From positions 18,424 to 82,423 of the forward strand of contig CALLPI010000018.1 of NCBI GenBank assembly GCA_938015595.1: DNA of 64,000 nucleotides. Direction: 5' to 3'. Of the stretch, positions 6,931 to 34,430 are shown piece after piece; within the stretch, counting starts at the first letter, position 1; each line of letters opens with the position of its first letter. This DNA is from an uncultured Saprospiraceae bacterium (GTDB lineage Bacteria > Bacteroidota > Bacteroidia > Chitinophagales > Saprospiraceae). Below the pieces are notes generated by a model. That model saw only the letters and a list, made by a program, of their open reading frames with translations, was not told the DNA's origin and did not search any database. The translations under genes were made by a program, and so were the position numbers.

Positions 6931-7489
6931 TTGGTTTTTTGCTTGAACTCTACTTTTGAGCTTAATAATATATGGCAACATCGTAATAGCTTGACGATTA
7001 TTGCCATTGAAACAACACAACAGCACGCAGTGAGTTGCGAATGGAAATGTTAAATTCTGCCGGATGGACGATGCCTTTGAAGTTTGGTCCACAGCCTGTT
7101 TGGCAGGTATATTTCCTTGCTGCCGGGCCGTATAGGCTAAGTTCACAGAGGAGATTGGAAAGCTCAGAATATCTTTGGCATGAGGGCGAGGTGTGTCAAG
7201 CTCCTGAATGCTACATTTACTTGGTGTTTTTTAGGATTGCCGCGTCGGGATGTACCCATTAGCGACAGATACAAACGCCTTCGGTAGCAGCCCTGATTCT
7301 ATTTGCCGCCTTCGCTGTTCTGTTCAGTATGGCGTACTGGTGATTTTTATCATCGCCTACGCAACGCATTGCTCAACAGCAATATATAAAAATAATATCC
7401 CGTGCTTTTTGTAGGAATGGCGTAGCAGTAGTGAGGTGAAAAATTAGGCAGTGCGGTATAGATATGTTAATTTTACATCTGCTTAATGT
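6931..7489. other. Intergenic region upstream of two divergent units
   Basis: 559 bp between the divergent TonB receptor and the first gene of the polysaccharide locus. The last 100 bases before 7490 are AT-rich and hold plausible promoter sequence (TTAATTTTAC near 7468), but no clean match to the Bacteroidota -33/-7 consensus. No credible small gene, RNA gene or long inverted repeat was found here. Confidence 0.5.
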
Positions 7490-9409
7490 ATGATGTTTAT
7501 GAGGCTATCTTTACCTTTACAACAAGGTAGGAGCAGCGGCCACGTGGGGAGAATGCTCTGCGGTCTGGGGTTGCTCCTCTATGGCACGGGGATGTTATTT
7601 GAGGCTAATGCACAGCCTGCTCCACCTACAAACTTCTCTGTAATTGGCTATGACAGCCACCTTGAGCTGAGCTGGAACGCTCCTCCTGCATCCAATATTT
7701 CCTCCTATAATATATATCGCGCTGCTACCCCAGACGGCCCCTTTGCTTTGTTTCGCCAGACAAGTGGCGATCGTCGATATGCTCTGGATTTCACGGGGCG
7801 TGTGGACACTACCTTCTATTATCGAGTGGCGGCAGTGAATGCCATTGGGCAGGAGGGCACACCCAGTGCCGTACAGAGCGGCAGCACGGCGGCTATGTCA
7901 GACGAGGACTTGCTCACCATGGTGCAACGCTACACTTTTCGCTACTTTTGGGACTACGGACATCCGGTGTCGGGCTTGGCGCGCGAGCGGTTCACCTCTG
8001 GCGATGTAGTAACCATCGGCGGCTCTGGATTTGGCATCATGGCCATAGCGGTGGGTGCAGAGCGCGGCTTCGTCTCTCGCGAAGAAGCCGTACTCCGGCT
8101 CATTCAGATCACTTCCTTTCTGGAAATACGGGCCCAGCGCTACCATGGGGCGTTTGCGCACTGGATCAACGGCGCTACGGGCGCAACCATTCCTTTCAGC
8201 CAGTTTGATGACGGCGGCGATCTCGTAGAAACGGCTCTTTTGATGCAGGGTTTGCTGGCGGCGCGCGGATACTTCAACGCCAATACGCCGCTGGAAAACG
8301 CGCTGCGCGCCTCCATCACTCGTCTGTGGGAGGGCGTGGAGTGGAGTTGGTACCGCCGCAACAACAGCAATGTGCTGTACTGGCACTGGTCGCCCAACTA
8401 TTATTGGCAGATGAACTTTGAGTTGCGCGGCTTCAACGAGGTGATGATAGCTTACATTCTAGGTGTTGCTTCGCCTACGTATGGCATACCGCCACATCTG
8501 TATCACGTGGGCTGGGCCAACAACGGCGCCATTGTCAATCCGGCTTTGTACTACGGCATTCCTATACTAGCGGGGCCATTTCGGGGCGGCCCTCTGTTCT
8601 TTGCGCATTATTCTTACTTAGGCTTTGATCCGCGTGACAAACGCGACGCCTATTGCAACTACTTCATGCGCAACCGCAACCATGCCTTGATCAACAGGGC
8701 ATACTGTATAGCCAATCCTAAGAATTACGCTGGTTACGGCCCCAACTGCTGGGGGCTGACCGCCAGCGACAATCCTTGGGGCTACCTGGCGCACGAGCCG
8801 GTATTTGACCGCGACAACGGCACCATTGCCCCCACGGCGGCGCTGTCGTCTATGCCTTACACGCCCGCAGAGTCTATCGAAGCCCTCAAATACTTCTATC
8901 GCCAGCTCGGCCAACGGCTCTGGGGCTGGTACGGCTTCTATGATGCCTTTAATCTACAAGAAGATTGGGTGTCCAGCTACTGGCTGGCCATTGACCAGGG
9001 GCCTATTATTGCAATGATAGAGAACTACCGCACTGGGCTGCTGTGGAATGCCTTTATGTCTAATCCAGAAATACAGCCCGCCCTGAACGCCATAGGCTTT
9101 GTGCCCGACGTGAGCAACGCGCGCGATGTGCTGGACTTTCCGGTGCAGATGACCATAGCACCCCATCCGGTGCAGTCAGCAGAGTTTCAGTTGCTGATTT
9201 TGAGCGAACGCACTTTGCTTGCAGAACTAGACATCAAAGACATGAACGGGCGGCTGGTACAGGCGCTGGGCAGGCACAGTCTCCAGCCGGGGAAGAACAC
9301 CTTATCGTTACGACTGCCTTCTACAATGCCCAATGGCATGTACCTGCTGGAGTGCAGGGCAGAAGGATTGCACCATATGGAGAGGATCGCAGTTTATCAC
9401 CATAATTAA
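7490..9409 (+). CDS. T9SS-exported GH144-type glucanase (PF10091) with FN3 domain
   Basis: 639 aa, first gene of the polysaccharide locus. An N-terminal signal peptide ends near ANA-Q (residue about 43). A fibronectin type III domain follows (about 45-130: PTNFSVIGYDSHLELSWNAP, YNIYRAATPDGPF). The catalytic domain (about 135-545) is the PF10091 glycoamylase-like family, with blocks YFWDYGHPVSG, NEVMIAYILGVASPTYG, GYGPNCWGLTASD, DNGTIAPTAA and IDQGPIIAMIENYR. Family members characterised as GH144 are endo-beta-1,2-glucanases. The last about 85 residues are a T9SS type A sorting domain, so the enzyme should be secreted or surface-attached. Start codons at 7490, 7493 and 7499 are all in frame. 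A 14-bp gap separates it from the next T9SS gene. Confidence 0.88.
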   Translation: MMFMRLSLPLQQGRSSGHVGRMLCGLGLLLYGTGMLFEANAQPAPPTNFSVIGYDSHLELSWNAPPASNISSYNIYRAATPDGPFALFRQTSGDRRYALDFTGRVDTTFYYRVAAVNAIGQEGTPSAVQSGSTAAMSDEDLLTMVQRYTFRYFWDYGHPVSGLARERFTSGDVVTIGGSGFGIMAIAVGAERGFVSREEAVLRLIQITSFLEIRAQRYHGAFAHWINGATGATIPFSQFDDGGDLVETALLMQGLLAARGYFNANTPLENALRASITRLWEGVEWSWYRRNNSNVLYWHWSPNYYWQMNFELRGFNEVMIAYILGVASPTYGIPPHLYHVGWANNGAIVNPALYYGIPILAGPFRGGPLFFAHYSYLGFDPRDKRDAYCNYFMRNRNHALINRAYCIANPKNYAGYGPNCWGLTASDNPWGYLAHEPVFDRDNGTIAPTAALSSMPYTPAESIEALKYFYRQLGQRLWGWYGFYDAFNLQEDWVSSYWLAIDQGPIIAMIENYRTGLLWNAFMSNPEIQPALNAIGFVPDVSNARDVLDFPVQMTIAPHPVQSAEFQLLILSERTLLAELDIKDMNGRLVQALGRHSLQPGKNTLSLRLPSTMPNGMYLLECRAEGLHHMERIAVYHHN

Positions 9410-9423
9410 AAACCATTAAAACC

Positions 9424-12400
9424 ATGAAAAAAGTACCACTTCTTCTTATCTCAGCGGTCGTATGGAGCGTAGTGGCACTGGCACAGGTGCCGTATATTCT
9501 ATACGAAGACTTTGAAAACGGAGGCCTCCAGGCCAACTGGAACGCTGTGAACGGACCTACTTTTGCTGTGGTGGACAACCCGAACCAGAGCCCAGGCAAC
9601 AACAGTGCTAAAGTAGGAGCAGTGACAAACAATCCGGCTTCTGACTTCAGCTTCATGCTGGTGAATACTGGCGGCCGGGTGGATCTTACCGAGTACAACC
9701 AGTTCAAGATTTCGGTGTGGTCGCCACAGGCGGGTATTCAGTTTTTGTTCAAGATTGAAGGTGGCGGTGCCATTGAGCGCTTCGTACCCATCACAGTGGC
9801 CAACCAATGGGTAGAATACACCATTGACCTCTCCGGCGGCGCCAACCTCAATGCACTGACTACCTTCCTGATTTCATTCAACCCCTTTAACGGTACTGGC
9901 GATAGTAACACGTACTACTTCGACTTCCTCCGCGCCGAGAAGCCTACTCAAAAGATGTGGGAGAGTTTTGAAGGCAGTGGGGCGGCTTTGCCCTGGAATG
10001 GGCTAAATGGCACTTACAATGGCGTAGTGGACAACCCCGACCAAGGCACAGCTAACCCCAGTGCTAAAGTAGGATCTTATACCAACAATGCTGCTTTTGA
10101 CTTTAACTTCGTGCTGGCCAACACTGGTGGCCCAGTAAATATCTCCGAACTGAGCCACTTCAGAATGAAAGTGTGGTCGCCTGTAGCGCCTGCCAAAGTC
10201 TTGTTAAAACTGGAAGGCGGTGGCCAACAGGTGGAACAATTCCAGGACATCACAGTAGCCAACCAGTGGGTAGAATACACCTTCGATCTCTCCGCTGGTA
10301 CAACTAATACGGCCATGACCACCTTCCTGGTGTCGTTCAACCCATTTGTGCTGGGTGATACCAGCACCTACTACTTTGACGATATTGTAGCTGTACAAGC
10401 ACAGCACGTGTACGAAGACTTCGATGGCACCAGCATCAGCTGGATCGGTATCAATGGCACCTACAACGGCCCCGTAGCCAACCCCAGCCCCGACGCCGGC
10501 AACCGCTCCGCTACAGTGGGCTCCAACACTAACAACTCTGGCTCAGACTTCAACTTTGTATTTGGTACAGCACCTCAGCCCTTCAACCTTAGCGTCTATA
10601 ATCAATTCAGAGTCAGTATTTGGTCGCCGACAGCCAGCCGCGTACTCTTCAAGTTGGAAGGCGGCGGCCAGGCCATTGAGGCTATCAAGAAAATTACCCA
10701 GCCCAATGCTTGGGTGGAGTACGAATTTGACTTCTCTGCAGCTGCCGGCATTACCGTGATGGACAAGATGCTCATCTCCGTGACGCCCTTCGAACCTGGC
10801 AACAGCGATACCTGGTACTTTGACAACATCTACGCCCTGCCGGCGGGCGCTTGTGCCACTGCCCCGCGCGACAATAAAATCGTGGATGACTTTGAATGCA
10901 ACCGCAACGCTGCTTACAGCATTGGCAATAAAAATCTGGCTATTGTAAACAACCCCAACCCTACGCCAGTGAATAACAGCGCCAAAGTAGGCCGCTTTGT
11001 GGACCCACCCGGCCCCTGGTATCCCTTAGTGCTCGACTACCACGATGTGCTAAACATGAGCGAGAACAACTACATTAGCCTAAAACTGTGGGCTCCCCGC
11101 CCAGGCGACATTCTCTTCAAACTAGAAGGTGGTGCTTCGCCGGCTGTAGAAAAGCGCGTACCGGTATCTGCTCTCAATACCTGGGTAGAGTACGGCGTGG
11201 ACTTCTCCGATCAGGCCGGCGCCAGCCACAGGCGCATTGTGTTCTTCTTCAATGCTGGCGATAACGCCGACGCCGGCGCCGTGTATTTCATTGACGACAT
11301 CAAGCGTACGCCGCGCCCTGTACCGCCGCCGCTGGAGCAGTTTGAAGACGGACCTTTTGGAGGCGCCAACCTCGACTGGCAACCCTTCAACGAAGACCCA
11401 GTCATACATGGTACTTTTGCCCGCATACCCAACCCTGACCCCACCGGCGTAAACACTACTGCCCACGTAGGACGCTACCGCAAGGGGGCTTCGCCATTCA
11501 GTACCCTCACAGCCTTCTTGCCCAACGGTATTGACTTGCGCAATGCGCCGCAGCTCAACCTCGACGTGTGGGCGCCCACCGGTGCAGCCAACGTGACCAT
11601 GCAGTTGATCAGTGCTTCCCAAGGGGCCAAAGAACGCACAGTGGCCATCCCCAACACCCAGCAGTGGGTAACGCTTGGCTTCGAATTTTCAGACTTTGCC
11701 AGCATTACTGACTATGAAGAAATCCGCCTGATCTTTGACAATGGCGTGGTCAATACCGACTTTTACTACTTTGATAACCTGGCACAGAGCATACGTACAG
11801 TAGACCCCTGTGCCGGCACAGCGCCTGACCCACGTATACTAGATGACTTTGAATGCCAGCGCAATGTAACTTACCCAGTAGGAGCCAGCCGCTTGGAAGT
11901 GGTGAACAACCCAGGCCTGCAGGTGGCCAATGCCAGTCTTAAGGTAGGCAAATACACCGACCCAGCCAATGACCCCTGGGCTGCCCTGGTCATGGACCCA
12001 GGCGCTGCCCTCGACCTGAGCATTTACAACCAGTTCAACATCCAGGTGTATGCCGCCCAGACTGGCCCGCTTCTGGTCAAACTGGAAGGTGGCACCTCGC
12101 CCGCGCGAGAGGTCTTCCTGCAGTTGGATGCCGTCAATACCTGGAAGACCTACACAGCTGACTTCAGCCAGTACGCTGATGAAAACCACCGCCGTATTGC
12201 CTTGTTCTTCAATGCTGGCATTGGCCAGCCCACCCAGGATGTGTGGTACTTCGACAACGTGACTTGGGGGCGCTCGCCGTATCGCGGCTGCATTACTACC
12301 TTTGACCACCCACAGTTTACGGTGACCAACTGGCGCTACTTTGCCAATGGTTCGCTTGAAAATACGGTGTTCGAACCAGCGCCCAACCCCAACCCCAGTG

Positions 12401-13065
12401 GAATCAATACCAGCCCAACGGTGGGGGTATTCCGCGAAGCCAACGACGGCCTCATATTTGCTGGCATGTACGCCGACCTGGAGGCGCCAGTAGCCTTGCC
12501 GCCCAACAACAAGACCATCCGCATGAAGGTGCTCATGGACGCGCCGGCACTGGTAGTATTTAAGTTGGAGCGTGGCCGCACTGGTTCACCCAACTCCGGC
12601 GACGTACCCAACCCCAGCACCGCCGACAATAACTACACCACGCCAGGGCAATGGCAAGAGTTGACGTTTGACTATTCAGCTATGCCCGATAACACCCTAC
12701 ACGACCGCATTACCATCATCATGAACTTCCGCGAAGTACCAGCAGTAAACAAGACGTACTACTTTGACGACATCACCATCGGCGATGCCAACTGCCCAGG
12801 CGCGGTCAGCACTTTTGAGCCGGTAGTGGAGCGCCTGTACTTGATGCCCAACCCGGCTTACGAACGCCTGACGGTGCAAAATGCCGAGAGGGTGGCCCAG
12901 TTCTTGATTCACAACGCTTATGGCCAACTAGTAGGCCGCCTGCCCAACAATGGGGAGTACAACTTCCAGGTGGACCTGAGTGGCTTTGCTAAGGGCATGT
13001 ACATACTGAGCGGCTACAACGCACAAGGACAACTGGTGGCCAACGCCAAGTTTATCAAGCAGTAA
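9424..13065 (+). CDS. Seven-repeat T9SS surface protein, putative glycan-binding
   Basis: 1213 aa with a signal peptide (MKKVPLLLISAVVWSVVALA-Q) and a T9SS sorting domain from about residue 1129 (YLMPNPAYERLTVQN, then GMYILSGYNAQGQ). Between them lie seven tandem beta-sandwich repeats of about 150 aa, beginning near residues 23, 177, 329, 483, 637, 802 and 955. Each has the same skeleton: an acidic opening (YEDFENGG, DDFEC), VVDNP-P, NxSAKVG, a central W-P segment, LFKLEGGG, WVEYxxDFS, and a closing YYFDxI. The pattern resembles CBM11/CBM4-like jelly rolls. No catalytic motif is evident. Its place between two glucanases suggests binding of the same polysaccharide at the cell surface; that is inference. 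Repeats 4 and 6 share an extra Cys pair and are closest to each other. Confidence 0.85.
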   Translation: MKKVPLLLISAVVWSVVALAQVPYILYEDFENGGLQANWNAVNGPTFAVVDNPNQSPGNNSAKVGAVTNNPASDFSFMLVNTGGRVDLTEYNQFKISVWSPQAGIQFLFKIEGGGAIERFVPITVANQWVEYTIDLSGGANLNALTTFLISFNPFNGTGDSNTYYFDFLRAEKPTQKMWESFEGSGAALPWNGLNGTYNGVVDNPDQGTANPSAKVGSYTNNAAFDFNFVLANTGGPVNISELSHFRMKVWSPVAPAKVLLKLEGGGQQVEQFQDITVANQWVEYTFDLSAGTTNTAMTTFLVSFNPFVLGDTSTYYFDDIVAVQAQHVYEDFDGTSISWIGINGTYNGPVANPSPDAGNRSATVGSNTNNSGSDFNFVFGTAPQPFNLSVYNQFRVSIWSPTASRVLFKLEGGGQAIEAIKKITQPNAWVEYEFDFSAAAGITVMDKMLISVTPFEPGNSDTWYFDNIYALPAGACATAPRDNKIVDDFECNRNAAYSIGNKNLAIVNNPNPTPVNNSAKVGRFVDPPGPWYPLVLDYHDVLNMSENNYISLKLWAPRPGDILFKLEGGASPAVEKRVPVSALNTWVEYGVDFSDQAGASHRRIVFFFNAGDNADAGAVYFIDDIKRTPRPVPPPLEQFEDGPFGGANLDWQPFNEDPVIHGTFARIPNPDPTGVNTTAHVGRYRKGASPFSTLTAFLPNGIDLRNAPQLNLDVWAPTGAANVTMQLISASQGAKERTVAIPNTQQWVTLGFEFSDFASITDYEEIRLIFDNGVVNTDFYYFDNLAQSIRTVDPCAGTAPDPRILDDFECQRNVTYPVGASRLEVVNNPGLQVANASLKVGKYTDPANDPWAALVMDPGAALDLSIYNQFNIQVYAAQTGPLLVKLEGGTSPAREVFLQLDAVNTWKTYTADFSQYADENHRRIALFFNAGIGQPTQDVWYFDNVTWGRSPYRGCITTFDHPQFTVTNWRYFANGSLENTVFEPAPNPNPSGINTSPTVGVFREANDGLIFAGMYADLEAPVALPPNNKTIRMKVLMDAPALVVFKLERGRTGSPNSGDVPNPSTADNNYTTPGQWQELTFDYSAMPDNTLHDRITIIMNFREVPAVNKTYYFDDITIGDANCPGAVSTFEPVVERLYLMPNPAYERLTVQNAERVAQFLIHNAYGQLVGRLPNNGEYNFQVDLSGFAKGMYILSGYNAQGQLVANAKFIKQ

Positions 13066-13125
13066 AGCCGTGTGCATCGGCAGTTTAGGGAGTTTATAGT
13101 TTCATCATAAGGCTATGTCGCATCA

Positions 13126-13163
13126 TGTGGAAATCCACTCCTGCTCCAGGAGTGGATTCCACA
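13126..13163 (+). other. Strong intercistronic hairpin in the glucan locus
   Basis: TGTGGAAATCCACTCCT pairs with AGGAGTGGATTCCACA across a 5-base loop (16 pairs, one bulged A). It sits in the 160-bp gap between the seven-repeat gene and the GH144 lipoprotein gene. No T-run follows, so it looks more like an mRNA processing or stability element than a rho-independent terminator. Confidence 0.6.
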
Positions 13164-13225
13164 GTTGCGATTATCGGCGGGAAAAGAACGACTTCTCTGC
13201 TATATAGCTTCCAAATCCCCTTGCT

Positions 13226-14629
13226 ATGCGACTAACGGCTATCTTATGCCTTTTGAGTTGCCTTTTGCTACCTGTAGCTTGCAAAGAGGCCAAACCCATC
13301 ACTTCTACTACGGCGCCGGTGCCTTTCAGTGAGGATGAGCTGCAGCGGCGCACCTTTCTTTATTTCTGGGAATTGGCCGATACGGTATATGGTCAGATCC
13401 CCGACCGCTGGCCCGCACTTACGTTTTCGAGCATAGCAGCCACAGGGTTTGGCCTCACCAGCTACATCGTAGGTGTGGAGCGCGGCTTCGTTACTCGCTC
13501 GGCTGCTGCAGCCCGCACCCTGAAGACCTTGCGCGCCTTGTGGAGCCTGCCACAAGGGCCACAGCCCAGCGGCGTGAGTGGCTACCAGGGCTTTTTTTAC
13601 CACTTTCTGAACCTGGACGACGCACGGCGTTTCAAGCAGGTAGAACTTTCCACCATTGACACAGGGTTGCTGATGGCGGGCGTGCTATCGGCGCAGTCTT
13701 ACTTTGATGCTGACAACCCCGTAGAAGCCGAAGTACGCCAGGTAGCCGACCAGTTGTTTCGCAGGGTCAACTGGCCATGGTTTCTCAACAAAAACGGATT
13801 GCTCAGCATGGGCTGGCATCCTGAAACCGGTTTTCTGGAGGCTCAGTGGGACGGCTACAACGAAGCCATGATTTTGTATATATTGGCCTTTGGCTCGCCC
13901 ACGCACCCGCTACCAGCCGACCTCTGGCAGGGCTGGACCAAACCCTATCTATGGGCGGAGTTCCAGGGGCAGCAGATGGTCAATTTCGCGCCACTGTTTG
14001 GCCACCAGTACAGCCATATGTATATTGACTTTAGGGGGATACGCGATGCCTACATGCAGGAAAAAGACATGGACTACTTTGAGAACAGCCGGCGGGCTAC
14101 GCTGGCCAACCGCGCCTACTGCATACAAAACCCTGGTGGTTTCAAAGGCTATGGCCCCAACCTATGGGGGCTGACCGCCTGCGATGGGCCGGCTTATCTG
14201 GAACGCGAGTACAATGGCAAGTTCGTGCACTTTCAGGAGTATTCAGCACGCGGAGCGGCTGCCGACTACATCCGCGATGACGGCACCATTGCACCCACGG
14301 CTGCTGGCGGTTCTGTGCCGTTTGCGCCTAAAGAGTGCCTGGATGCCCTAAAATTTATGTGGGAAACTTACTACCCCGACCTTGTAGGTCAGTACGGTTT
14401 CAAAGATGCCTTCAATCTTACTTTTACCTTCAAGCCTGGCACAGAGAGAGGCTGGTTTGACACGGACTACCTTGGCATTGATCAGGGGCCAATACTGATC
14501 CAAATGGAAAACTACCGCAGTGAACTGATCTGGAAGGTAATGAAGAAAAATCCCTACATCCGCATAGGGCTCCGCAAGGCAGGGTTCCAGGGCGGATGGT
14601 TAGAAGAAAAACATCACAGCAATCACTAA
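13226..14629 (+). CDS. GH144-type glucanase lipoprotein (PF10091)
   Basis: 467-aa lipoprotein: hydrophobic signal followed by lipobox LLPVAC (Cys near residue 20). The rest is one PF10091 catalytic domain, clearly paralogous to the enzyme at 7490. Shared blocks include TFLYFWELAD, YNEAMILYILAFGSPTHPLP, NRAYCIQNP, GYGPNLWGLTACDGP, DDGTIAPTAAGGSVPF and GIDQGPILIQMENYR. It has no FN3 or T9SS domain, so it is probably anchored in the outer membrane and acts on oligomers at or inside the surface, while the T9SS paralogue attacks polymer. GH144 members cleave beta-1,2-glucan; specificity here is inferred. The GH3 gene begins 14 bp after the stop, so they should be co-transcribed. Confidence 0.88.
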   Translation: MRLTAILCLLSCLLLPVACKEAKPITSTTAPVPFSEDELQRRTFLYFWELADTVYGQIPDRWPALTFSSIAATGFGLTSYIVGVERGFVTRSAAAARTLKTLRALWSLPQGPQPSGVSGYQGFFYHFLNLDDARRFKQVELSTIDTGLLMAGVLSAQSYFDADNPVEAEVRQVADQLFRRVNWPWFLNKNGLLSMGWHPETGFLEAQWDGYNEAMILYILAFGSPTHPLPADLWQGWTKPYLWAEFQGQQMVNFAPLFGHQYSHMYIDFRGIRDAYMQEKDMDYFENSRRATLANRAYCIQNPGGFKGYGPNLWGLTACDGPAYLEREYNGKFVHFQEYSARGAAADYIRDDGTIAPTAAGGSVPFAPKECLDALKFMWETYYPDLVGQYGFKDAFNLTFTFKPGTERGWFDTDYLGIDQGPILIQMENYRSELIWKVMKKNPYIRIGLRKAGFQGGWLEEKHHSNH

Positions 14630-14643
14630 AAAAATATGCTTGT

Positions 14644-16902
14644 ATGAGTGTACTAAGGAAAATCATACATGTTGTAGCCCTACTGTTTGTGGCTTATTTA
14701 ATGAACAGTTTTGCGTTGCGAAGCGGCATTATGAAGCATCCGCAAATGAACAAAACCATTGAGCAGCGCGTGGACTCGCTACTCGCCCTGATGACGCTAG
14801 AGGAAAAAATCGGGCAAATGACCCTATTTACTTCCGACTGGGAAATGACCGGCCCCACCCTGCGCGCCGAGTACAAGGAAGACATCCGCAAAGGGCGCGT
14901 GGGGGCTATCTTCAACGCGCACACCGCCGCCTACACCCGCGAGTTGCAGCGCATAGCCGTGGAGGAAACGCGCCTCAAGATACCATTGATTTTTGGCTAC
15001 GACGTCATCCACGGCTACAAAACTATCTTCCCTATTCCGCTGGGCGAAGCCGCCAGTTGGGACTTACAGGCTATTGAACAAGCGGCTCGCATTGCCGCAG
15101 TAGAAGCCTCCGCTGCCGGCCTGCATTGGACTTTTGCCCCAATGGTGGACATTGCCCGCGACCCGCGCTGGGGGCGCATCTCCGAAGGCGCTGGGGAGGA
15201 CAGCTACCTCGGCTCGGCTATTGCTGCTGCTCGCGTGCGCGGCTTCCAGGGCAATGGGTTTGACAACGCCGATGCTATACTAGCTTGCGCCAAGCACTAT
15301 GCTGCCTACGGCGCCGCCCAAGCTGGACGCGATTATCATACGGTGGACATGTCCGAGCAAGTGCTCCGAGAGGTGTACTTGCCACCGTTCAAAGCTGCCC
15401 GTGATGCCGGCGCCTGGACGTTTATGACAGCTTTCAACGAGTGGAACGGCATACCCGCTACGGCTAATACCCGACTAATCAAGGATATTCTAAAGTGGGA
15501 ATGGGGGTTCCCCGGCTTTGTAGTCACTGATTACACCTCCATCAACGAAATGGTACTGCACGGCTACGCAGCCGATGACAAACACGCTGCCGAACTCTCC
15601 GTTAATGCCGGCGTGGATATGGACATGCAAGGCGCTGTATATTACCACCACTTGGCTGACTTGGTCAAAGAAGGCAAGGTAAAAGTATCGCGCATAGACG
15701 ATGCCGTGCGCCGCATCTTGCATCTGAAGTTTTTGCTGGGGCTATTTGACGACCCCTATCGCTTCTGCGACGAAGCACGGGAAAAGCGCCTTATTATGGC
15801 ACCCGAACACCAGGCTGCCGCCCGCGATATGGCGCGCAAGTCTATCGTACTGTTGCGCAATGAAAAACAGACCCTGCCGCTGTCTAGGCAAATCAAGACG
15901 CTGGCTGTCATTGGCCCGTTGGCCGACAGCAAACAGGACATGCTAGGCAACTGGTCGGCTTCCGGCGATGCCAAAGACTGTGTGACGCTGCTGGAAGGCG
16001 TACGCGCCAAACTACCCGGCCAAGGGCGCGTACTATATGAAAAAGGCTGCGACATAGAAAATAAGAGCGACCGCTCAGGCATAGCCAAGGCGCTGGCTGT
16101 AGCAAAGAAAGCCGACGCCATAGTGGTGGTTGTGGGCGAAGCGGGCTGGATGTCGGGCGAGGCAGCCAGCCGCGCAGACATTGGCTTGCCCGGCCTGCAG
16201 GAAGAACTGGTGAAGGCACTGGTAGCCACGCAGAAGCCAGTGGTAGTAGTGCTAATGAACGGGCGCCCGCTGGCCATTCCCTGGGTGGCAGAAAATGCTC
16301 CTGCTATACTGGAGACCTGGTTTGCCGGTACTCAAGGCGGCCATGCCATTGCAGATGTGTTATTTGGCGACTACAATCCTTCTGGCAAGCTGCCTGTCAC
16401 GTTCCCTCGATCTGCAGGGCAGATTCCGCTATTTTACAACGCAAAAAACACCGGACGACCTGCCGACCCTAACAACAAATACACCAGCAAATACCTGGAT
16501 GTGCCCAACTCGCCGCAGTGGCCCTTTGGCTTTGGTTTGAGCTATACAACCTTTAGCTACAGTGACTTGCAAGTGGACAAAAAGGAGTTTGGCTACAACG
16601 ACGCGCTGACCATCCGCGTAAAAGTGACCAATACTGGCGCCCGCGAAGGCGAAGAAACCGCTCAGCTGTACGTGCGCGACTTAGTGGGCAGCGTCACTAG
16701 GCCAGTGCGCGAACTCAAGGGCTTTCAGAAGGTGCAGCTCAAGCCCGGTGAAAGCAAGGTGATCACTTTCAGACTCAGTGCTGATGATCTTCGATTTTAC
16801 AATGCCGACTTGCTCTTTCGTGCAGAGCCTGGGGAGTTTGACATCTGGGTAGGCGGAGACTCTAACGCAGCGCTGGGCACGAGAGTGACGCTGAAACATT
16901 GA
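14644..16902 (+). CDS. GH3 beta-glucosidase, BglX-like
   Basis: 752-aa periplasmic beta-glucosidase from the ATG at 14644; the in-frame ATG at 14596 lies inside the preceding gene and was rejected. An N-terminal membrane or signal segment (about 5-25) precedes the GH3 N domain (about 40-360), with RDPRWGRISEGAGEDSYL, KHYAAYG and the predicted nucleophile Asp about 296 in GFVVTDYTS. The GH3 C domain (about 400-620) carries GWMSGEAASRADIGLPG, where Glu about 506 is the likely acid/base. An FnIII-like C-terminal domain follows (LYVRDLVGSVTRPVRELKGF). GH3 enzymes near GH144 genes hydrolyse sophorose and longer beta-1,2-gluco-oligosaccharides to glucose, which fits the locus; other beta-glucosides remain possible. 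Confidence 0.92.
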   Translation: MSVLRKIIHVVALLFVAYLMNSFALRSGIMKHPQMNKTIEQRVDSLLALMTLEEKIGQMTLFTSDWEMTGPTLRAEYKEDIRKGRVGAIFNAHTAAYTRELQRIAVEETRLKIPLIFGYDVIHGYKTIFPIPLGEAASWDLQAIEQAARIAAVEASAAGLHWTFAPMVDIARDPRWGRISEGAGEDSYLGSAIAAARVRGFQGNGFDNADAILACAKHYAAYGAAQAGRDYHTVDMSEQVLREVYLPPFKAARDAGAWTFMTAFNEWNGIPATANTRLIKDILKWEWGFPGFVVTDYTSINEMVLHGYAADDKHAAELSVNAGVDMDMQGAVYYHHLADLVKEGKVKVSRIDDAVRRILHLKFLLGLFDDPYRFCDEAREKRLIMAPEHQAAARDMARKSIVLLRNEKQTLPLSRQIKTLAVIGPLADSKQDMLGNWSASGDAKDCVTLLEGVRAKLPGQGRVLYEKGCDIENKSDRSGIAKALAVAKKADAIVVVVGEAGWMSGEAASRADIGLPGLQEELVKALVATQKPVVVVLMNGRPLAIPWVAENAPAILETWFAGTQGGHAIADVLFGDYNPSGKLPVTFPRSAGQIPLFYNAKNTGRPADPNNKYTSKYLDVPNSPQWPFGFGLSYTTFSYSDLQVDKKEFGYNDALTIRVKVTNTGAREGEETAQLYVRDLVGSVTRPVRELKGFQKVQLKPGESKVITFRLSADDLRFYNADLLFRAEPGEFDIWVGGDSNAALGTRVTLKH

Positions 16903-16978
16903 CACAAGAAGCGGCAGCTACATTGCCGAAGGTGCTCTTAGCTCCAAACATTAGAAATAACAAAAAAAGTGGCAAAAT

Positions 16979-19954
16979 ATGAAATCACTCCAATCACTCC
17001 TCTGGGCAGCATGCCTGCTGATAAGCACATGGGCCGCTGCTCAGGTCACTGTCACTGGTAAGGTGAACGATGAAAAAGGCGAGGCCATCATCGGCGCTAA
17101 TGTGATGATCAAGAACTCCACTACAGGTACAATAACTGATATTGATGGCAGTTTCGAGATCAAAGTGCCAGATGCTTTTGTCACGCTGATAGTATCGTAC
17201 ATTGGCTACACTACGCAGGAAATTCCGCTACGAAACCAAACACGCCTGGAGGTAGTGTTGCGGGAGCAAGCCACGCTTATCAACGAAGTGGTGGTAGTGG
17301 GCTACGGCACTACGCGCAAGAGTGACCTGACTGGCTCAGTGACCAGCGTTAAGTCGGAAGAAATTCAGAAGATTGCAGCGGCCAACCCCATGCAGGCCTT
17401 GCAAGGTAAAGTAGCCGGTGTACAGGTGAGTACGGCGTCGGGGCGCCCTGGCGAGGGGCCGGTAGTACGCATACGCGGCACGGGTACGCTCAATGGTGCT
17501 GCGCCGATCTATGTAGTAGATGGATTGATTCTCAATAACATAGACTTTCTGAATACCGCCGACATCGAAAGTATGGAGGTGCTCAAGGATGCTTCTGCGG
17601 CAGCTATTTACGGTACGCGCGGCGCCAATGGAGTCATTCTCATCACTACGCGCAAGGGTGCGCGCAGCGCCAAGTCCAGGGTATCGTTCAGTTCTTATGT
17701 GGGGCAGCAGCAAGTAGAGCGCCGGCTGGACATGGCCAACGCCGCCGAGTATGCTCAGTTGGTCAATGAATTGTCGGGGCGCGCAGTGTACCCCAACCCC
17801 GATGCGCTGGGACAAGGCACTGACTGGCAGGACGTCATCTACCAAAACGGACTGATACATAACTACAACCTCAACATAAGCGGTGGCTCTGACAACATGC
17901 TGTTCAGCATCAGCGCTGATGTATTCCGCCAGGAAGGCATTATCCGCTCATCGTACTTCAACCGCTATACGCTGCGCATTAACAACGAGTACAACTTCTT
18001 TCGGTGGATGAAATTCGGGCACAATGCAGCCTTCGTGATGTCGGACAATAACCGCGAGCCGGGCGGCATTGTATTCAACGCCATTGCCGCCGACCCCACC
18101 GCCCCCGTGCGCGACACTACTGGCAACTACGGCAACACCTCGCGCAACTCCAACGTGAGCAACCCCGCCGCCCAATTGGAGTATAACAGCTACAATCGGG
18201 GCTACGGCCAGCAATTCACTGGCAACTTCTACAGCGACATCTTTCTGGTCAAAAACCTGACTGTGCGCAGCAGTTTTGGTTACAACCTGGTGAACAACCG
18301 CAACAGGAGCTACGAGCCGCAGTTTTTTGTGAACGATAAGCAGCAGAATCCCGAAAGCCGCATCTTCGCTGGATTTTACAGAGGCGTGGACTGGCAGTGG
18401 GAGAACACCGCCAACTACCGCAAGGAGTGGAAAAACCACCGCATAGATCTACTGGCCGGCTACACTGTACAGGCCATCACCGGCGAGGGCATTGGCGGTG
18501 GGCGCGCCCGGCTTATTGGTAATACACCGGAGTTTTTCTACCTGAACGCCGGCGATGAGCAAACGGCTACCAACTACCACTTTGGCAATACGCCTGAGCG
18601 CTATCTCTCCACGCTGTTTCGCGTCAATTACGCCTTATTCGACAAGTATCTGCTGACGGCCTCGTGGCGGCGCGACGGTTCGTCTAAGTTTGGTGCAAAG
18701 CGGCGATTTGGCAGTTTTCCCTCGGTGGCAGTAGCTTGGCGCGTCATTGATGAGCCATTCATGCAAAACCAAAAACTGCTGACCAACCTCAAGCTACGCG
18801 CCAGTTGGGGGCAGTTGGGCAACGACAAGATCCCAGCCAGCGCCGCCATTCCCACTGTCACCAATAGCCTTAGTGCCGTATTTGGCCCCGATGAACAATT
18901 GCTCTTTGGCGCTACGGTTATCACCTTGGCCAATCCCTTCCTGCAGTGGGAACTGAGCACCAGTACCAACCTGGGTGTGGAAGTAGGCGCCGTGGACAAC
19001 CGCCTGACCCTGGAGATGGATTACTACCGCCGCCTAACCGATAAAATCCTGGTGGCTGTGCCCATACCCGACTACGTAGGCTCGGCAGGCGACCCCTTTG
19101 TGAATGCCGCCAGCGTGCTCAACAGCGGCCTGGAAGCCGTGCTCAACTGGCGTGGGCGCATAGGCAAGCTCAACTACCGTGCTGGCCTCAATGGCTCCAC
19201 AGTACAAAATGAGGTGAAATCGCTGGGGGCCGGCAACCAGTTTCTGCGCGGTGCTTTTATTAACGGAGAAGTGGCTACCCTCACCGAAGTAGGTGGCCCC
19301 ATTGGCGCTTTCTATGGCTATCGCGTGGCGGGCGTGTACCAAAGTGCAGAGGACATTGCACAGTATCCCAACCAGGGCCTGGTGCGACCTGGCGACCTGC
19401 GCTTTGAAGACGTCAATGGCGATGGTATCATCAGCCCTGATGACCGCACCTATTTGGGCAGCCCCATTCCTAACCTGATTTTCGGTTTCAATGTGGGTTT
19501 TGACATCGCCGGCTTTGATTTTTCGGCAGATTTCAACGGGGTGCGCGGCAACAATATACTTAACGCCAAGCGCATGTTTCGAGGCTTCGGCATACCCAAC
19601 TTTGAGGCTGACTTCCTCGACAGATGGACAGGACCAGGCACAAACGACCGCCGGCCTCGTACCACCAACGGTGGCTATCCTAACTACAGCGTGTCGGACT
19701 TCTTCCTCGAAGATGGCTCCTTTATGCGCCTGCGCAGTTTTCAGGTGGGATACAGCTTCCCCAAAAGCCTGCTGGCCAAGGCCAAACTATCAAACCTACG
19801 CCTTTACCTAAGCGGCAACAACGTACTGTTGTGGACAAAATATTCGGGCTACAGTCCCGAAATAGGCAGTGAAAATGTGCTGCAAGTCGGTATTGATGGA
19901 GGGATTTATCCCACAGCCAGAACCTTTTTGGTGGGCCTCAATGCCGGATTTTAA
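16979..19954 (+). CDS. SusC/RagA-family TonB-linked outer-membrane transporter
   Basis: 991-aa SusC-type importer. The signal peptide ends at AAA-Q (residue about 21). Next come a carboxypeptidase-like domain (VTGKVNDEKGEAIIGANV, about 25-105), the SusC signature region INEVVVVGYGTTRKSDLTGSV (given here in part), the plug (about 110-235: ALQGKVAGVQVSTASGRPG, VRIRGTGTLNG, ILKDASAAAIYGTRGANGV-like segment) and a barrel ending in a terminal aromatic residue. It would import oligosaccharides released by the surface glucanases, with SusD as the lid. SusD starts 25 bp downstream. The 76-bp gap upstream from GH3 shows no terminator, so the gene probably belongs to the same operon. Confidence 0.95.
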   Translation: MKSLQSLLWAACLLISTWAAAQVTVTGKVNDEKGEAIIGANVMIKNSTTGTITDIDGSFEIKVPDAFVTLIVSYIGYTTQEIPLRNQTRLEVVLREQATLINEVVVVGYGTTRKSDLTGSVTSVKSEEIQKIAAANPMQALQGKVAGVQVSTASGRPGEGPVVRIRGTGTLNGAAPIYVVDGLILNNIDFLNTADIESMEVLKDASAAAIYGTRGANGVILITTRKGARSAKSRVSFSSYVGQQQVERRLDMANAAEYAQLVNELSGRAVYPNPDALGQGTDWQDVIYQNGLIHNYNLNISGGSDNMLFSISADVFRQEGIIRSSYFNRYTLRINNEYNFFRWMKFGHNAAFVMSDNNREPGGIVFNAIAADPTAPVRDTTGNYGNTSRNSNVSNPAAQLEYNSYNRGYGQQFTGNFYSDIFLVKNLTVRSSFGYNLVNNRNRSYEPQFFVNDKQQNPESRIFAGFYRGVDWQWENTANYRKEWKNHRIDLLAGYTVQAITGEGIGGGRARLIGNTPEFFYLNAGDEQTATNYHFGNTPERYLSTLFRVNYALFDKYLLTASWRRDGSSKFGAKRRFGSFPSVAVAWRVIDEPFMQNQKLLTNLKLRASWGQLGNDKIPASAAIPTVTNSLSAVFGPDEQLLFGATVITLANPFLQWELSTSTNLGVEVGAVDNRLTLEMDYYRRLTDKILVAVPIPDYVGSAGDPFVNAASVLNSGLEAVLNWRGRIGKLNYRAGLNGSTVQNEVKSLGAGNQFLRGAFINGEVATLTEVGGPIGAFYGYRVAGVYQSAEDIAQYPNQGLVRPGDLRFEDVNGDGIISPDDRTYLGSPIPNLIFGFNVGFDIAGFDFSADFNGVRGNNILNAKRMFRGFGIPNFEADFLDRWTGPGTNDRRPRTTNGGYPNYSVSDFFLEDGSFMRLRSFQVGYSFPKSLLAKAKLSNLRLYLSGNNVLLWTKYSGYSPEIGSENVLQVGIDGGIYPTARTFLVGLNAGF

Positions 19955-19979
19955 TTTGCCAAAATAAAATCTATTCGCG

Positions 19980-21458
19980 ATGAAAAAGTATATCATTCGG
20001 TTTCTTGCCACCTTGGCAATGGGTATGGGGGCCACGGCCTGCAACCAAGACTTCCTGGACGTAAAACCACAGGGGCAAATCAATGCCGAAAACTACTTCC
20101 AAACCACCGACCACGCTATATGGGCTACCAATGCTGTGTATAATCAATTGCGCACCTGGGATGTGATTGCTTTCCCGTTTTTGGCCATGACCGACATTGT
20201 TTCCGACGACGCCACCAAGGGCAGTTTCCCGGCAGATGCACAGCGCTTGAGCACTTTTGACGACTTCACCTACGGCCCATCTTTCCCAGAGGAAATTCGC
20301 CTGGCTTGGCGGGGCTACTATCGGGGGGTGTTCCGCGCCAATACAGCTATTGAAGGCATTGCCAAGGTGCAAATGGATGAGCAACTCAAAAATCGGCTCA
20401 TCGGCGAGTGCAAGTTCTTGCGGGCGCACTACTACTTCTACCTCGTGCGCTGGTTTGGCGATATTCCGCTCATTACCAAGCCCTTGTTGGAAAGCGAGTA
20501 CTACAATCAACCACGTGCACCTAAGGCGGAGGTCTATAATCTCATCATTCAAGACCTCAAAGATGCGATCGAAGCGCTACCCGAGAAAAGCCAGTATCCG
20601 GCTGCCGACCTCGGGCGGGCAACCAAAGGCGCTGCACGCGGTGTGCTGGCCAAGGTGTACCTAACCATCGGCGACTTTGTGAATGCCGAACGCTATGCGC
20701 TGGAAGTCATCAACTCCGGGCAGTACGCGCTGTTACCCAATTATGCCCGCATCTTCTTACCCGAAGGCGAAAACTCCAGCGAATCAGTATTTGAAATCCA
20801 GGCTACGGCACTTGAAGAATCTTATGCTGGTGCTACTGCCTGGAACATGATACAAGGTGTGCGCGGTACGCCCAATCTGGGTTGGGGCTTCAACTTGCCC
20901 AGTGACGACCTCGTTGCCGCCTATGAACCGGGCGACCCCCGCCGCGATGCCACCATCTTGTACGTGGGAGAGGTACTACCTGACGGCTCTGGTGTAGTGC
21001 AGGACAATCCCGAAATGCTCAATGAGCGCTATAACCAAAAAGCCTGGACGCCCAGCCACCCTGGTTTACAAGACAATGGCCCCAGCAACATTCGCATACT
21101 GCGCTATGCCGACGTACTGCTCATGGCCGCTGAAGCACTCAATGAAAACGACAAGCTGCAGCAAGCGCTCACTTATATCAACCAAGTACGCGCGCGCGCA
21201 CGCGGCAATCGGCCACCCAGCGTGCTACCTGCGCTTACTTTCAGCAGCAAAGAGCAACTGCGCCAAGCCATCTGGCGCGAGCGCCGCGTAGAACTGGCCA
21301 TGGAACAGCACCGCTGGTTTGATCTTGTGCGCACTGGACAAGCAGCTACCAAGCTGGCGCCCCTGGGCTTCAAGGCCAACAAGAACGAGTTGTTTCCGAT
21401 ACCCCAGTCGGAGATTGATTTGACCAACGGTATTATTAAGCAAAACCCAGGATATTGA
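19980..21458 (+). CDS. SusD/RagB-family nutrient-uptake lipoprotein
   Basis: 492-aa surface lipoprotein forming the ligand-binding lid of the upstream SusC. The signal peptide ends in GATAC (lipobox, Cys near residue 21), directly followed by the family hallmark QDFLDVKPQGQINAENYFQ. The helical TPR-like core includes ANTAIEGI, GECKFLRAHYYFYLVRWFGDIPLIT and AARGVLAKVYLTIGD; the C-terminal half has the typical RYADVLLMAAEALNE, YINQVRARA and RRVELAMEQHRWFDLVRTG. The spacing to susC (25 bp) and gene order are canonical. The ligand is inferred from the neighbouring GH144/GH3 enzymes to be beta-1,2-linked gluco-oligosaccharide. Confidence 0.95.
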   Translation: MKKYIIRFLATLAMGMGATACNQDFLDVKPQGQINAENYFQTTDHAIWATNAVYNQLRTWDVIAFPFLAMTDIVSDDATKGSFPADAQRLSTFDDFTYGPSFPEEIRLAWRGYYRGVFRANTAIEGIAKVQMDEQLKNRLIGECKFLRAHYYFYLVRWFGDIPLITKPLLESEYYNQPRAPKAEVYNLIIQDLKDAIEALPEKSQYPAADLGRATKGAARGVLAKVYLTIGDFVNAERYALEVINSGQYALLPNYARIFLPEGENSSESVFEIQATALEESYAGATAWNMIQGVRGTPNLGWGFNLPSDDLVAAYEPGDPRRDATILYVGEVLPDGSGVVQDNPEMLNERYNQKAWTPSHPGLQDNGPSNIRILRYADVLLMAAEALNENDKLQQALTYINQVRARARGNRPPSVLPALTFSSKEQLRQAIWRERRVELAMEQHRWFDLVRTGQAATKLAPLGFKANKNELFPIPQSEIDLTNGIIKQNPGY

Positions 21459-21585
21459 GGAGAAGGGGCAAATGAGTTAACAGGGTAATCTTCAAACGAA
21501 GTAATGAGCTTAAAGAGAGAGGAACAAGCATGTTGGAAAGATGGGGGCCGCCCTATGCCCTTCAGAAAATAAAAAATACGTTCCT

Positions 21586-24567
21586 ATGTTACAAATTGGG
21601 ATTTTCCTTGCTTTGATGCTGGGCTTCAATAACCTTTGGGCGCAAGTGCGCCATGACACCGTGCTGATTGATTTTGGCAGCAATATTTCCTCGTTTCCGT
21701 GGAATAATGTTACAGACCCTACAGCGGGTTTTATTGCCGATATGATCAACACAGATGGGCAGCAATCAGGCATTTACATGCTGGTGTATGATGCCTTTAA
21801 CAACATCAATACCGCAGGAACGATGGCGCCAGACCCTGCGCTGGGCATGCCGGGTACAGCTACTAGCGATAGTTTTTTTGGCAATACCATCACTTTTGGT
21901 GGACAGGTGCAAACCACCGGTGGCGTGGAATTGGCCAACTTACAGTTGGGCAAAACCTACGAGATTACCATTTTTGCCTCGCGCATGTCAGTGGCCGACA
22001 ACAGGGAGACGCGCTACTTAATAGAGGGCGCAGTCATGGACTCGCTATTCCTGGATGCCTCCAACAATACTGATCGCGTCGTTAGCATTAGCATGTTACC
22101 TGACGTTAATGGCGTCATTCGCATAACAGCCTCTCCCGGGCCTAACAACAATAACTCCACCGGCTTTTACTACCTAGGCGCCATTAGGTTGGTGTATGAA
22201 GAGAACGAGCCTCCAGCGGGAGGGCAGTTGGATACCTTGCTCATTGATTTTGGAACAGTGTTCTCGCCTTCGCCGTGGAACAACGTAACCGACCCCACAG
22301 CAGGCCTCGTCAATAACCTGGTCAATACTGCTGGGCATCCCTCCGGACGAGGCATTGCTGTGTTTGATGCTTTTACAGGGGTGAATACACAAGGTACAAC
22401 CTCACCGGCACCAGCGCTGGGCTTTCCAGGCTCGGCTACCAGTGACAGTTTCTATGGCAATACCGGCTCTTTTGCTGGCCAGGTGCAGCCTACCGGCGGT
22501 GTAGAACTTTTCCGCCTGGACCCTGCCAAAGCCTACGACATAGCCATTTTTGCCTCTCGCCTGGGCACCGACGTGCGCGAAACCAGGTACGTGCTGCAGG
22601 GGCTTACCACCGATACGCTACTGCTCAATGCGTCTTCCAACACGGACATGACAGCCCGCACAGTGCTTCGACCTGCCGCCGACAGCACCATACGCATTAC
22701 GGCATCGCCGGGGCCCAACAACAACAGCCCGCTCGGATTTTTTCACCTCGGCGCCATGCAGGTATTGTATGAAAAGGAAGCCCCCCCTGTAGTTTCTTTG
22801 ACTGATACCTTGCTCATAGACTTTGGCAGCAACCTCTCGCCGCTGCCCTGGAACAATGTAACCGACCCCACCACCGACCGCATTGACGACCTGCTGACCT
22901 CTACCGGGCTAGCTTCCGGCAAATCAGTGGCAGTCTATGATGCCTTCAACAACATCAATACTGCCGGCACCCTCAGCCCTGAACCAGCCATTGGCTTCCC
23001 GCCTACGGCCACCGGCGATAGCTTTTTTGGCAATACAGCGACTTTTGGCGGCCAGGTGCAGCCCACCGGCGGCGTAGAATTTGGCGGCCTTGACCCAGCC
23101 AAGCCGCACACATTCATCATTTTCGCCTCGCGTATGGCCTCCAACGACAACCGCGAGGCGCGCTACATCCTCCAGGGGCTCTCGCAAGAAACCGCACTGC
23201 TGGATGCTGCCAATAACATCAATCGCGTAGCCACTGCAACCCTCTACCCGGCCAGCAATGGAACCATCCGCCTAGAGGCTGCTCCTGGACCAAACAACAA
23301 CAATACCTTCGGCTTTTACTACTTAGGTGCGCTGAAACTCCTGTACGAGCGCAGCGCTGTAAGCCCACCAGAGTTGGCGCTGGTATCACCCAATGGCGGC
23401 GAGTACTGGCAGGTGGGCAAAACGCCGTCTATCGTCTGGCAGAGCAGAAACGTAGGTAGTCTGGTGCTGGAATACTCCACCAACAACGGCGCTACCTGGA
23501 CGACCATAGACACTGTGCAGGCGTTCCGCCGCGAATACCCCTGGACAGTACCCAATGCGCCTTCCAGTGAGAGCCTGGTGCGGCTACGCACGCCCCAACT
23601 CAGCGTGCAAAGTGCCCGCTCCTTTGAAATTGCCGCCGATACTACTACATGCCACATTGTGGTGCTAGGCTCCTCTACAGCAGAGGGTGCCGGTGCTTCA
23701 CCTTCTGACAGTGCTTGGGTAAACCGCTATCGCAAAGCCATCTTTCAAAAGGACACACGCTACGCTGTGACCAACCTGGCCCGCGGCGGCTACACTACCT
23801 ACCACATACTGCCTACGGGTTCGCCCATTCCGCCCAACGTCAGCATCAGCATTGACCCGCAACGCAACATCACCCGCGCGCTGTCGCTACAGCCTTACGC
23901 CGTAATTATAAATATGCCCTCCAATGATGCAGCCAACTTCTTTCCTCTGGCCGACCAATTGGCCAACATGGCCCTCATTAAAACTACCACCAATGCCGCT
24001 AATGCCGAAATGTGGGTAACCACCAGCCAGCCCCGAAACTTTGGCAACCCAGCACAGATACTGCTCTTGACGCAGCTCCGCGATTCCATTCTGAGCATAT
24101 ACGGCGACAAGGCCATTGACTTCTGGACGGGTATTGCTGCGCCCAATGGCTTCATACAGAGTGCTTTTGACTCGGGCGATGGTATTCACCTCAACAATAC
24201 CGGGCATCGCCTGCTGTTTGAGCGCGTGCTGGCTAAGGGCATTGATACCTTGGGCTGCGATGACGTCAACACAGTTGTGCAGGAGGCGATCAAGCCCGGG
24301 CAATTGTTGGTCAGGGCATTCCCCAACCCGTTCCAGCGCCATTTCACGCTTGAGTTTGAAGCCACATCGGCTGGGCAAGTAGAACTGCAACTTCTGGATG
24401 TACTGGGGCGCAGGATAGTCTGCCTTCACGCGCCAATAGTTGGCGGCGGCCTTCATCAATGGTCGGTAGAACTACCCGAAACAACACCTGCCGTACTGAT
24501 TGGCATAGTGCGCCTGCAAACAGAAAAAGGCTGGACACAAGGGAGCATAAGGCTGATAAGAGGGTAA
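21586..24567 (+). CDS. T9SS protein: three malectin-like repeats + SGNH hydrolase
   Basis: 994 aa from the ATG at 21586, which gives a clean signal peptide (MLQIGIFLALMLGFNNLWA-Q). Three tandem about 190-aa beta-sandwich repeats start near residues 24, 216 and 407. Each has LIDFGs-PWNNVTDP, DAFnnINTaGT, GQVQPTGGVE, IFASRM and SPGPNNN-GFYYLGA and resembles malectin-like carbohydrate-binding folds. Next is a KRE9/KNH-type domain (about 596-680: SPNGGEYWQVG, WTVPN). The SGNH hydrolase (about 689-895) has all four blocks: GSSTAEGAG (Ser), NLARGGYTT (Gly), NMPSNDA (Asn) and DGIHLNNTGH (Asp-x-x-His). The end (about 904-994) is a T9SS sorting domain. SGNH enzymes near glycan loci are usually carbohydrate esterases, so removal of acyl groups from the glucan is plausible but unproven. 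Confidence 0.85.
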   Translation: MLQIGIFLALMLGFNNLWAQVRHDTVLIDFGSNISSFPWNNVTDPTAGFIADMINTDGQQSGIYMLVYDAFNNINTAGTMAPDPALGMPGTATSDSFFGNTITFGGQVQTTGGVELANLQLGKTYEITIFASRMSVADNRETRYLIEGAVMDSLFLDASNNTDRVVSISMLPDVNGVIRITASPGPNNNNSTGFYYLGAIRLVYEENEPPAGGQLDTLLIDFGTVFSPSPWNNVTDPTAGLVNNLVNTAGHPSGRGIAVFDAFTGVNTQGTTSPAPALGFPGSATSDSFYGNTGSFAGQVQPTGGVELFRLDPAKAYDIAIFASRLGTDVRETRYVLQGLTTDTLLLNASSNTDMTARTVLRPAADSTIRITASPGPNNNSPLGFFHLGAMQVLYEKEAPPVVSLTDTLLIDFGSNLSPLPWNNVTDPTTDRIDDLLTSTGLASGKSVAVYDAFNNINTAGTLSPEPAIGFPPTATGDSFFGNTATFGGQVQPTGGVEFGGLDPAKPHTFIIFASRMASNDNREARYILQGLSQETALLDAANNINRVATATLYPASNGTIRLEAAPGPNNNNTFGFYYLGALKLLYERSAVSPPELALVSPNGGEYWQVGKTPSIVWQSRNVGSLVLEYSTNNGATWTTIDTVQAFRREYPWTVPNAPSSESLVRLRTPQLSVQSARSFEIAADTTTCHIVVLGSSTAEGAGASPSDSAWVNRYRKAIFQKDTRYAVTNLARGGYTTYHILPTGSPIPPNVSISIDPQRNITRALSLQPYAVIINMPSNDAANFFPLADQLANMALIKTTTNAANAEMWVTTSQPRNFGNPAQILLLTQLRDSILSIYGDKAIDFWTGIAAPNGFIQSAFDSGDGIHLNNTGHRLLFERVLAKGIDTLGCDDVNTVVQEAIKPGQLLVRAFPNPFQRHFTLEFEATSAGQVELQLLDVLGRRIVCLHAPIVGGGLHQWSVELPETTPAVLIGIVRLQTEKGWTQGSIRLIRG

Positions 24568-34296: not shown

Positions 34297-34430
34297 CTAC
34301 ACATTTTTTCGAAAAAACAAACGAAGGAACGCAAAAGTAGGATATAGAGTTTGTTTTTTATAACCCGTTTGTGCAATCCAAAACTGTGCTTACGACGTTT
34401 GTATATGGCTAGAATAAAAATATTACCGAG

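Follow-up and report, generated by a model that had tools for sequence, protein, structure and literature searches.

The window, meaning the whole 64,000-nucleotide stretch of DNA analysed here, is from a Saprospiraceae genome and contains seven genes (Table 1) that probably form an operon for the utilization of β-1,2-glucan, a polysaccharide that other bacteria produce; its surface enzyme and its putative surface binding protein are both predicted to bear T9SS tails, where the corresponding proteins of most of the GH144 loci compared are lipoprotein-like. Because Gram-negative bacteria use β-1,2-glucans in infection, symbiosis and osmoregulation, the bacteria that feed on these polymers are of interest. 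In the proposed scheme, the product of gene 1 (GH144a) would be exported by the T9SS and would cut β-1,2-glucan outside the cell; that of gene 2, with its seven CBM-like modules, would bind the glucan at the cell surface, replacing the LamG-type lipoprotein of other loci; and that of gene 7 would remove ester decorations. The oligomers would then be imported by SusC and SusD, and finished to glucose in the periplasm by the lipoprotein-like product of gene 3 (GH144b), which has no clear surface signal, and the GH3 enzyme.

Table 1. Genes of the putative β-1,2-glucan utilization locus, with positions in the window
Gene	Position	Strand	Length (aa)	Predicted product and features
1 (GH144a)	7490..9409	+	639	Signal peptide (by reading), fn3-like domain, GH144 catalytic domain, T9SS-type tail
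2	9424..13065	+	1213	Seven CBM-like jelly-roll repeats and T9SS type A tail
3 (GH144b)	13226..14629	+	467	XcSGL-clade GH144, lipoprotein-like N-terminus
4	14644..16902	+	752	GH3 β-glucosidase, BglX type; three GH3 Pfam domains
5	16979..19954	+		SusC/RagA TonB-linked outer-membrane importer; TIGR04056 883 bits, cut-off 368
6	19980..21458	+		SusD-like lipoprotein (..ATACNQDFLD); PF07980 and PF14322 over cut-off
7	21541..24567	+	1008	Malectin-like repeats, Ig-like part, SGNH/GDSL esterase, weak T9SS tail

The initial annotation had described seven genes on one strand with gaps of 14 to 160 bp, among them two PF10091 enzymes, a GH3 enzyme, SusC and SusD, and this layout is borne out by the open reading frame calls and by Pfam and NCBIfam searches. 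The intergenic gaps are, in order, 14, 160, 14, 76, 25 and 82 bp. The third of these depends on the start of the GH3 gene: read from its first ATG (14596) the frame overlaps gene 3, and the ATG at 14644, which leaves the 14 bp gap, was adopted because the N-termini of the closest homologues fit it. The SusC/SusD pair adjoins glycan-degrading enzymes on one strand, as is characteristic of a PUL. Relatives of all seven genes sit in one locus in both same-genus genomes, and the host genome contains only two matches to PF10091, which are genes 1 and 3, and only four to SusD (E ≤ 1e-15). The ten neighbouring open reading frames that were scanned comprise release factor RF3, a DUF4249/TonB receptor pair, EamA, OmpA and five that matched nothing. 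They seem to have no connection with the locus, and neither a sulfatase nor a regulator was found among them. The DUF4249 protein and its TonB-dependent receptor partner lie at 3728-7146 on the minus strand, divergent from the locus. Further along the window, at 32194-35717, two frames of 700 and 428 aa lie between an amidase and a trypsin/PDZ protease; neither has a Pfam match (E ≤ 1e-5). The fold after gene 7 has a z of -2.1.

Both PF10091 domains were found to lie within GH144, as had been proposed, and not to cluster outside it; the assignment of genes 1 and 3 to this family is based on sequence matches, a tree and aligned residues. In a quick tree of 97 rows, constructed without sequences of GH162, GH189 and GH192-194, a split with SH-aLRT support of 100 separates gene 3 and XcSGL from gene 1, CpSGL, BDI_3064 and 4GL3. 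Gene 1 matches PF10091 with 259 bits, and fn3 with 23.2 bits, under the cut-off of 25 for that domain. In a PDB sequence search it matched 4GL3, 5Z06 and 5GZH with E ≤ 1e-146, and the only glycosidases retrieved were GH144 enzymes and 'putative glucoamylases'. It is 55% identical to CpSGL, and its residues D240, D244, E247, E317, F370 and Y432 correspond to D135, D139, E142, E211, F268 and Y330 of that enzyme, in which E211 is the general acid and E142 the candidate base, according to the available text of PMC12102758. Gene 3 matched 8XUL (XCC2207, which is XcSGL) with E 2.7e-149 in the PDB sequence search and is 53% identical to XcSGL; its general acid E213, together with F258 and Y339, is equivalent to E239, F286 and Y367 of XcSGL, and D145, an acidic equivalent of CpSGL E142, is its candidate base. 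In the alignment, both enzymes accordingly retain the clan-defining Phe and Tyr as well as the general acid and the candidate base. Membership of gene 3 in GH192-194 was considered, its best PDB match coming from the founding paper of those families, and was rejected, since XcSGL belongs to GH144; the same source describes XcSGL as strictly specific for β-1,2-glucan (PMC12102758, in the text available). Gene 1 is predicted to encode an extracellular β-1,2-glucanase and gene 3 a periplasm-facing one, β-1,2-glucan being in both cases the presumed substrate. Gene 4 scored 883.8 bits against the BglX NCBIfam model (cut-off 666) and, among 93 matched sequences, matched PDB 5XXL with E 1.7e-226 and Lin1840 with E 7.8e-172; in sequence it resembles BglX-type enzymes, Lin1840 included.

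The repeats of gene 2 are jelly rolls of 151-168 aa each, which together span aa 24-1119. With a match to the CBM_4_9 profile and a jelly-roll fold, they have the features of CBM X584 / CBM_4_9-like modules, and the nearest solved relative, ranked first by VIA-align, is the laminarin-binding CBM X584 of PDB 8QX6. A literature search for 8QX6 returned no paper; the entry may be linked to the laminarin-CBM paper of Zuhlke 2024. The top Foldseek matches were reelin fragments, with Cry and Vip3 toxins also appearing, and kinship with these was set aside as a matter of shared jelly-roll folds, VIA-align having placed 8QX6 first. In an order-level sample of 396 genomes, gene 2 occurs in 47, every one of which also has GH144, versus 122 of the 349 others. 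The distance between gene 2 and GH144 is at most 6 kb in 45 of the 47, it is 6.2 kb in one more, and in the last the two are split by contigs. The 128 SusD matches of 11 genomes were the source of controls: 40 loci were chosen among them by hand, with GH144 loci excluded. None of the 40 has a full-length gene 2, and three have lower-scoring relatives (226-255 bits). Gene 2 is predicted to encode a glucan-binding protein.

The T9SS type A tail of gene 2 scores 30.4 bits against a cut-off of 27. The tail of gene 1 (about aa 557-639) reaches 20.4 bits, under the same cut-off, and has support from its length and its homologues; when the tails of four of these were scanned, those of L085, L090 and L120 exceeded the cut-off and that of L097 did not. 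Gene 7 ends in a partial match of 19.4 bits, likewise under the cut-off. Of the earlier description of genes 2 and 7 as two repeat-rich T9SS proteins, the repeats in both and the tail of gene 2 stand; it needs amendment in that gene 7 is also an SGNH esterase. The host genome encodes SprA of the T9SS core (2293 bits, cut-off 200) and has 97 matches to T9SS tails (E ≤ 0.01), so that export by this route is possible, and the products of genes 1 and 2 are presumed to follow it. The GH144a enzymes of L085, L090, L097 and L120 are 814-826 aa long and have an extra N-terminal region, which in L090 gives a weak CBM30 match, under the cut-off.

The wider significance of these tails emerged from a comparison of 100 loci, comprising the window, 87 stretches from relatives and 12 of the 53 loci of an earlier survey. 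The sample is not random: 32 of the 87 stretches come from 31 of the 36 GH144-bearing genomes, 35 were taken because they hold gene 2, and 20 were hand-picked. The loci of the earlier survey that were left out are L003 and L004 (the same records as L083 and L084), L016 and L048 (from Bacteroidota, lacking both gene 2 and LamG), and others mostly from outside Bacteroidota. L118, at a contig break, has no GH144 in its stretch and is counted among the 100. A full-length gene 2 is present in 53 loci, 35 of which had entered the sample because they hold it; a LamG protein is present in 34, as judged with profiles seeded from open reading frames of loci in the sample, 15 of the 20 later-added hand-picked loci being among those with LamG; 12 loci have neither, and one has a cut gene 2. 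No locus has both, with the proviso that the stretches of seven of the 53 gene 2 loci are without SusD, so that a LamG gene might have escaped notice in these. The tail of GH144a follows the same division: among the readable loci, 48 of 49 with gene 2 have a tail of T9SS length, versus none of 29 with LamG.

In the commonest gene 2 form, here called type I, to which the window belongs, a tailed GH144a (tail of 81-105 residues) is accompanied by gene 2, an XcSGL-type GH144b, SusC, SusD and usually GH3. Gene 2 is also present in cultured bacteria: in Neolewinella persica (L117) it is accompanied by GH144a, GH144b, SusD and an SGNH gene, and in Haliscomenobacter hydrossis (L132) by GH144a and SusD, with no GH144b in the stretch. 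In the other type, GH144a has a long N-terminus and no tail, with Big_5 domains in all three enzymes scanned, and a lipoprotein-like LamG protein lies beside SusD; of five such proteins scanned, all matched PF13385 and two Big_5. A lipobox-like site is present in 25 of 32 long untailed GH144a enzymes and, the pattern being loose enough to have picked an early Cys in gene 3 of the window, also in 9 of 50 tailed ones. There are exceptions. L107 (genome G426) has gene 2 beside an untailed GH144 pair, without LamG; it also holds a 522-aa protein with an α/β-hydrolase domain and looks like a mixed or intermediate locus. L081, on a short contig, and L090 have a GH144a with a tail of T9SS length and lack gene 2, and SusD is not within reach in either; and the LamG locus L089 also has a 550-aa relative of gene 2. 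In the control SusD loci, a LamG protein exceeded the threshold in two of 40. XcSGL-type GH144b occurs in 8 of the 34 LamG loci as well, so that GH144b did not by itself bring about the change. From these sequence comparisons, it appears that the surface enzyme and the binder changed together, both giving up the lipoprotein form to become T9SS cargo, and the mutual exclusion of gene 2 and LamG and the distribution of tails may go back to one evolutionary switch in this family. Fisher values for these patterns take no account of kinship and, the loci being related, overstate the support.

In Bacteroidota, lipoproteins at the cell surface frequently carry acidic residues behind the lipid cysteine, and this offers a guide to the side of the membrane on which each protein acts. 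Gene 3 has a lipoprotein-like N-terminus (..LLPVAC-KEAK), with an unusual Pro at -3, and acidic residues after the Cys are few in the set of its homologues. Proteins with at least two acidic residues at +2..+6 of the putative lipid Cys number 19 of 33 for LamG, 9 of 25 for long untailed GH144a, and one of 40 for XcSGL-type GH144b with a lipobox-like site. These counts fit a location of GH144a and LamG outside and of GH144b inside, which we infer to be the arrangement.

In gene 7, three malectin-like repeats (about aa 37-610) and an Ig-like part (by reading) are joined to an SGNH/GDSL domain at about aa 696-907, in which the expected blocks are present (S712, G750, N795, D880, H883); the protein gave no match in the PDB sequence search. 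It is predicted to be an accessory protein that would deacylate the glucan. A core role was rejected, since relatives of gene 7 lie off the GH144 contigs in two genomes (G008 and G054) and at a great distance from it in a third (G063), and since SGNH esterases occur in only nine of the 100 loci. A second esterase fold, a PF02230-like α/β-hydrolase, is fused C-terminally to GH144b in 11 loci from two genus codes (L088, L095, L099, L100, L102, L103 and L110-L114; ten of them from one code, g40), occurs as a GH3 fusion in L072 and L091, and is free-standing in 11 others, in three of which it lies 3-7 kb from GH144. Taken together, esterases of the two folds occur in 33 of the 100 GH144 loci and, at threshold, in none of the 40 SusD controls, which hints that the substrate bears ester groups. 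Of the 24 α/β-hydrolase hits, three score low (72-143 bits), and a 32-bit match turned up in one control. The SGNH esterases alone (9/100 versus 0/40) do not differ significantly (Fisher 0.06); the 11 fused domains served as seed for the α/β-hydrolase profile, and with those loci removed the comparison is 13/89 versus 0/40 (Fisher 0.009).

A more far-reaching reading is possible, and we put it forward tentatively: that gene 2 founds a family of surface proteins dedicated to binding β-1,2-glucan, that the natural food is an acyl-decorated form of this polymer, and that in this lineage all the outer components of the system passed from the lipoprotein form to the T9SS. The food might then be, for example, the succinylated periplasmic or cyclic glucans of Proteobacteria, with the decorations stripped during chain cutting; and two unrelated esterase folds might have been recruited repeatedly for this, SGNH here and the α/β-hydrolase, fused or free, elsewhere.

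Three other explanations have to be weighed against the proposed scheme. It is rather unlikely that gene 1 is exo-acting and releases sophorose like BDI_3064, rather than being an endo-glucanase. The type I GH144a enzymes do share a clade with BDI_3064 (SH-aLRT 99, 18 rows), and the alignment with gene 1 extends over the fn3-like domain, but it starts only at residue 197 of BDI_3064, so that gene 1 is without the N-terminal domain of that enzyme. Shimizu in 2018 is said to have described this domain as blocking the non-reducing end in BDI_3064. In the available text of PMC8861115 the N-terminal region of the exo enzyme is given as of unknown function. It also seems unlikely that the locus targets β-1,2-glucan while gene 2 binds something else, another glucan such as β-1,3-glucan or, as an adhesin, a cell surface such as the envelope of the producer, thereby bringing the cell to the prey polymer. 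The nearest solved module binds laminarin (β-1,3), and the lower-scoring relatives in three control loci would suit this explanation; it fits less well with the constant company of gene 2 and GH144 in 47 genomes, with the absence of full-length gene 2 from the 40 other SusD loci, and with the finding that gene 2 and LamG proteins never occur together.

Improbable, finally, is that the enzymes act on a different or modified β-1,2-linked glycan instead of plain β-1,2-glucan. GH144 loci of marine organisms contain a sulfatase (PMC6499787) and the GH35 of a Bacteroides GH144 PUL is a β-1,2-galactosidase (PMC11739564), as far as the accessible text of these papers goes; the latter text also reports a GH35 encoded beside a GH144 gene as inactive on β-1,2-glucooligosaccharides, which counts against the proposed scheme. 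The esterases in a third of the loci (33/100) also favour a different or modified glycan. Against this explanation, gene 3 groups with the β-1,2-glucan-specific XcSGL and gene 1 with CpSGL, both keep the catalytic residues, and the ten scanned neighbours include no sulfatase. If the proposed scheme of a β-1,2-glucan operon with T9SS-tailed surface proteins is true, gene 2 becomes a candidate surface binding protein for β-1,2-glucan; a PUL can swap its surface parts, as a set, from lipoproteins to T9SS cargo; and esterified β-1,2-glucan is indicated as the real substrate, a reading that the enzyme-esterase fusions make directly testable.

A search of the open-licence literature found nothing on gene 2, on the exchange of LamG for gene 2, or on esterase-GH144 fusions, and no surface binder for β-1,2-glucan; Lin1841, in the source text available, is an ABC-transporter subunit that binds β-1,2-gluco-oligosaccharides. 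CBM X584 (8QX6) is a 165-residue chain with another glucan as ligand, whereas gene 2, a component of GH144 loci, comprises seven modules. The SGL cluster of Ignavibacterium album likewise has two GH144 genes, one product being predicted to lie outside, and TonB-dependent import has been speculated upon; it differs in having an ABC transporter and GH94-type and GH35 genes, and the available part of its description names neither SusD nor T9SS cargo (PMC8861115). GH144 PULs of Bacteroidota, reported to be abundant in the text available from PMC6499787, are closer: these and the LamG-type loci L068, L073 and L098 share with the window GH144, SusC and SusD, often GH3, and often a GH144 pair. In loci of that type, however, the catalytic domain is the last part of GH144a and a LamG lipoprotein is encoded next to SusD, whereas the window has a T9SS-type tail on GH144a, with gene 2 in the place of LamG. 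The mixture of T9SS surface enzymes with a SusCD system, which the initial annotation had regarded as less described, has a precedent in the chitin PUL of Flavobacterium johnsoniae, where the key endo enzyme ChiA is exported by the T9SS and works with SusC and SusD, and whose authors note, in the accessible text, that the endo enzymes of earlier PULs are outer-membrane lipoproteins (PMC5127042). The chitin locus has another substrate and another enzyme family, and in the window, unlike there, the predicted binding protein is T9SS-tailed in addition to the enzyme. GH144 PULs, the combination of T9SS and SusCD, and paired GH144 genes were thus already known, and what is new emerged from the comparison of the 100 loci.
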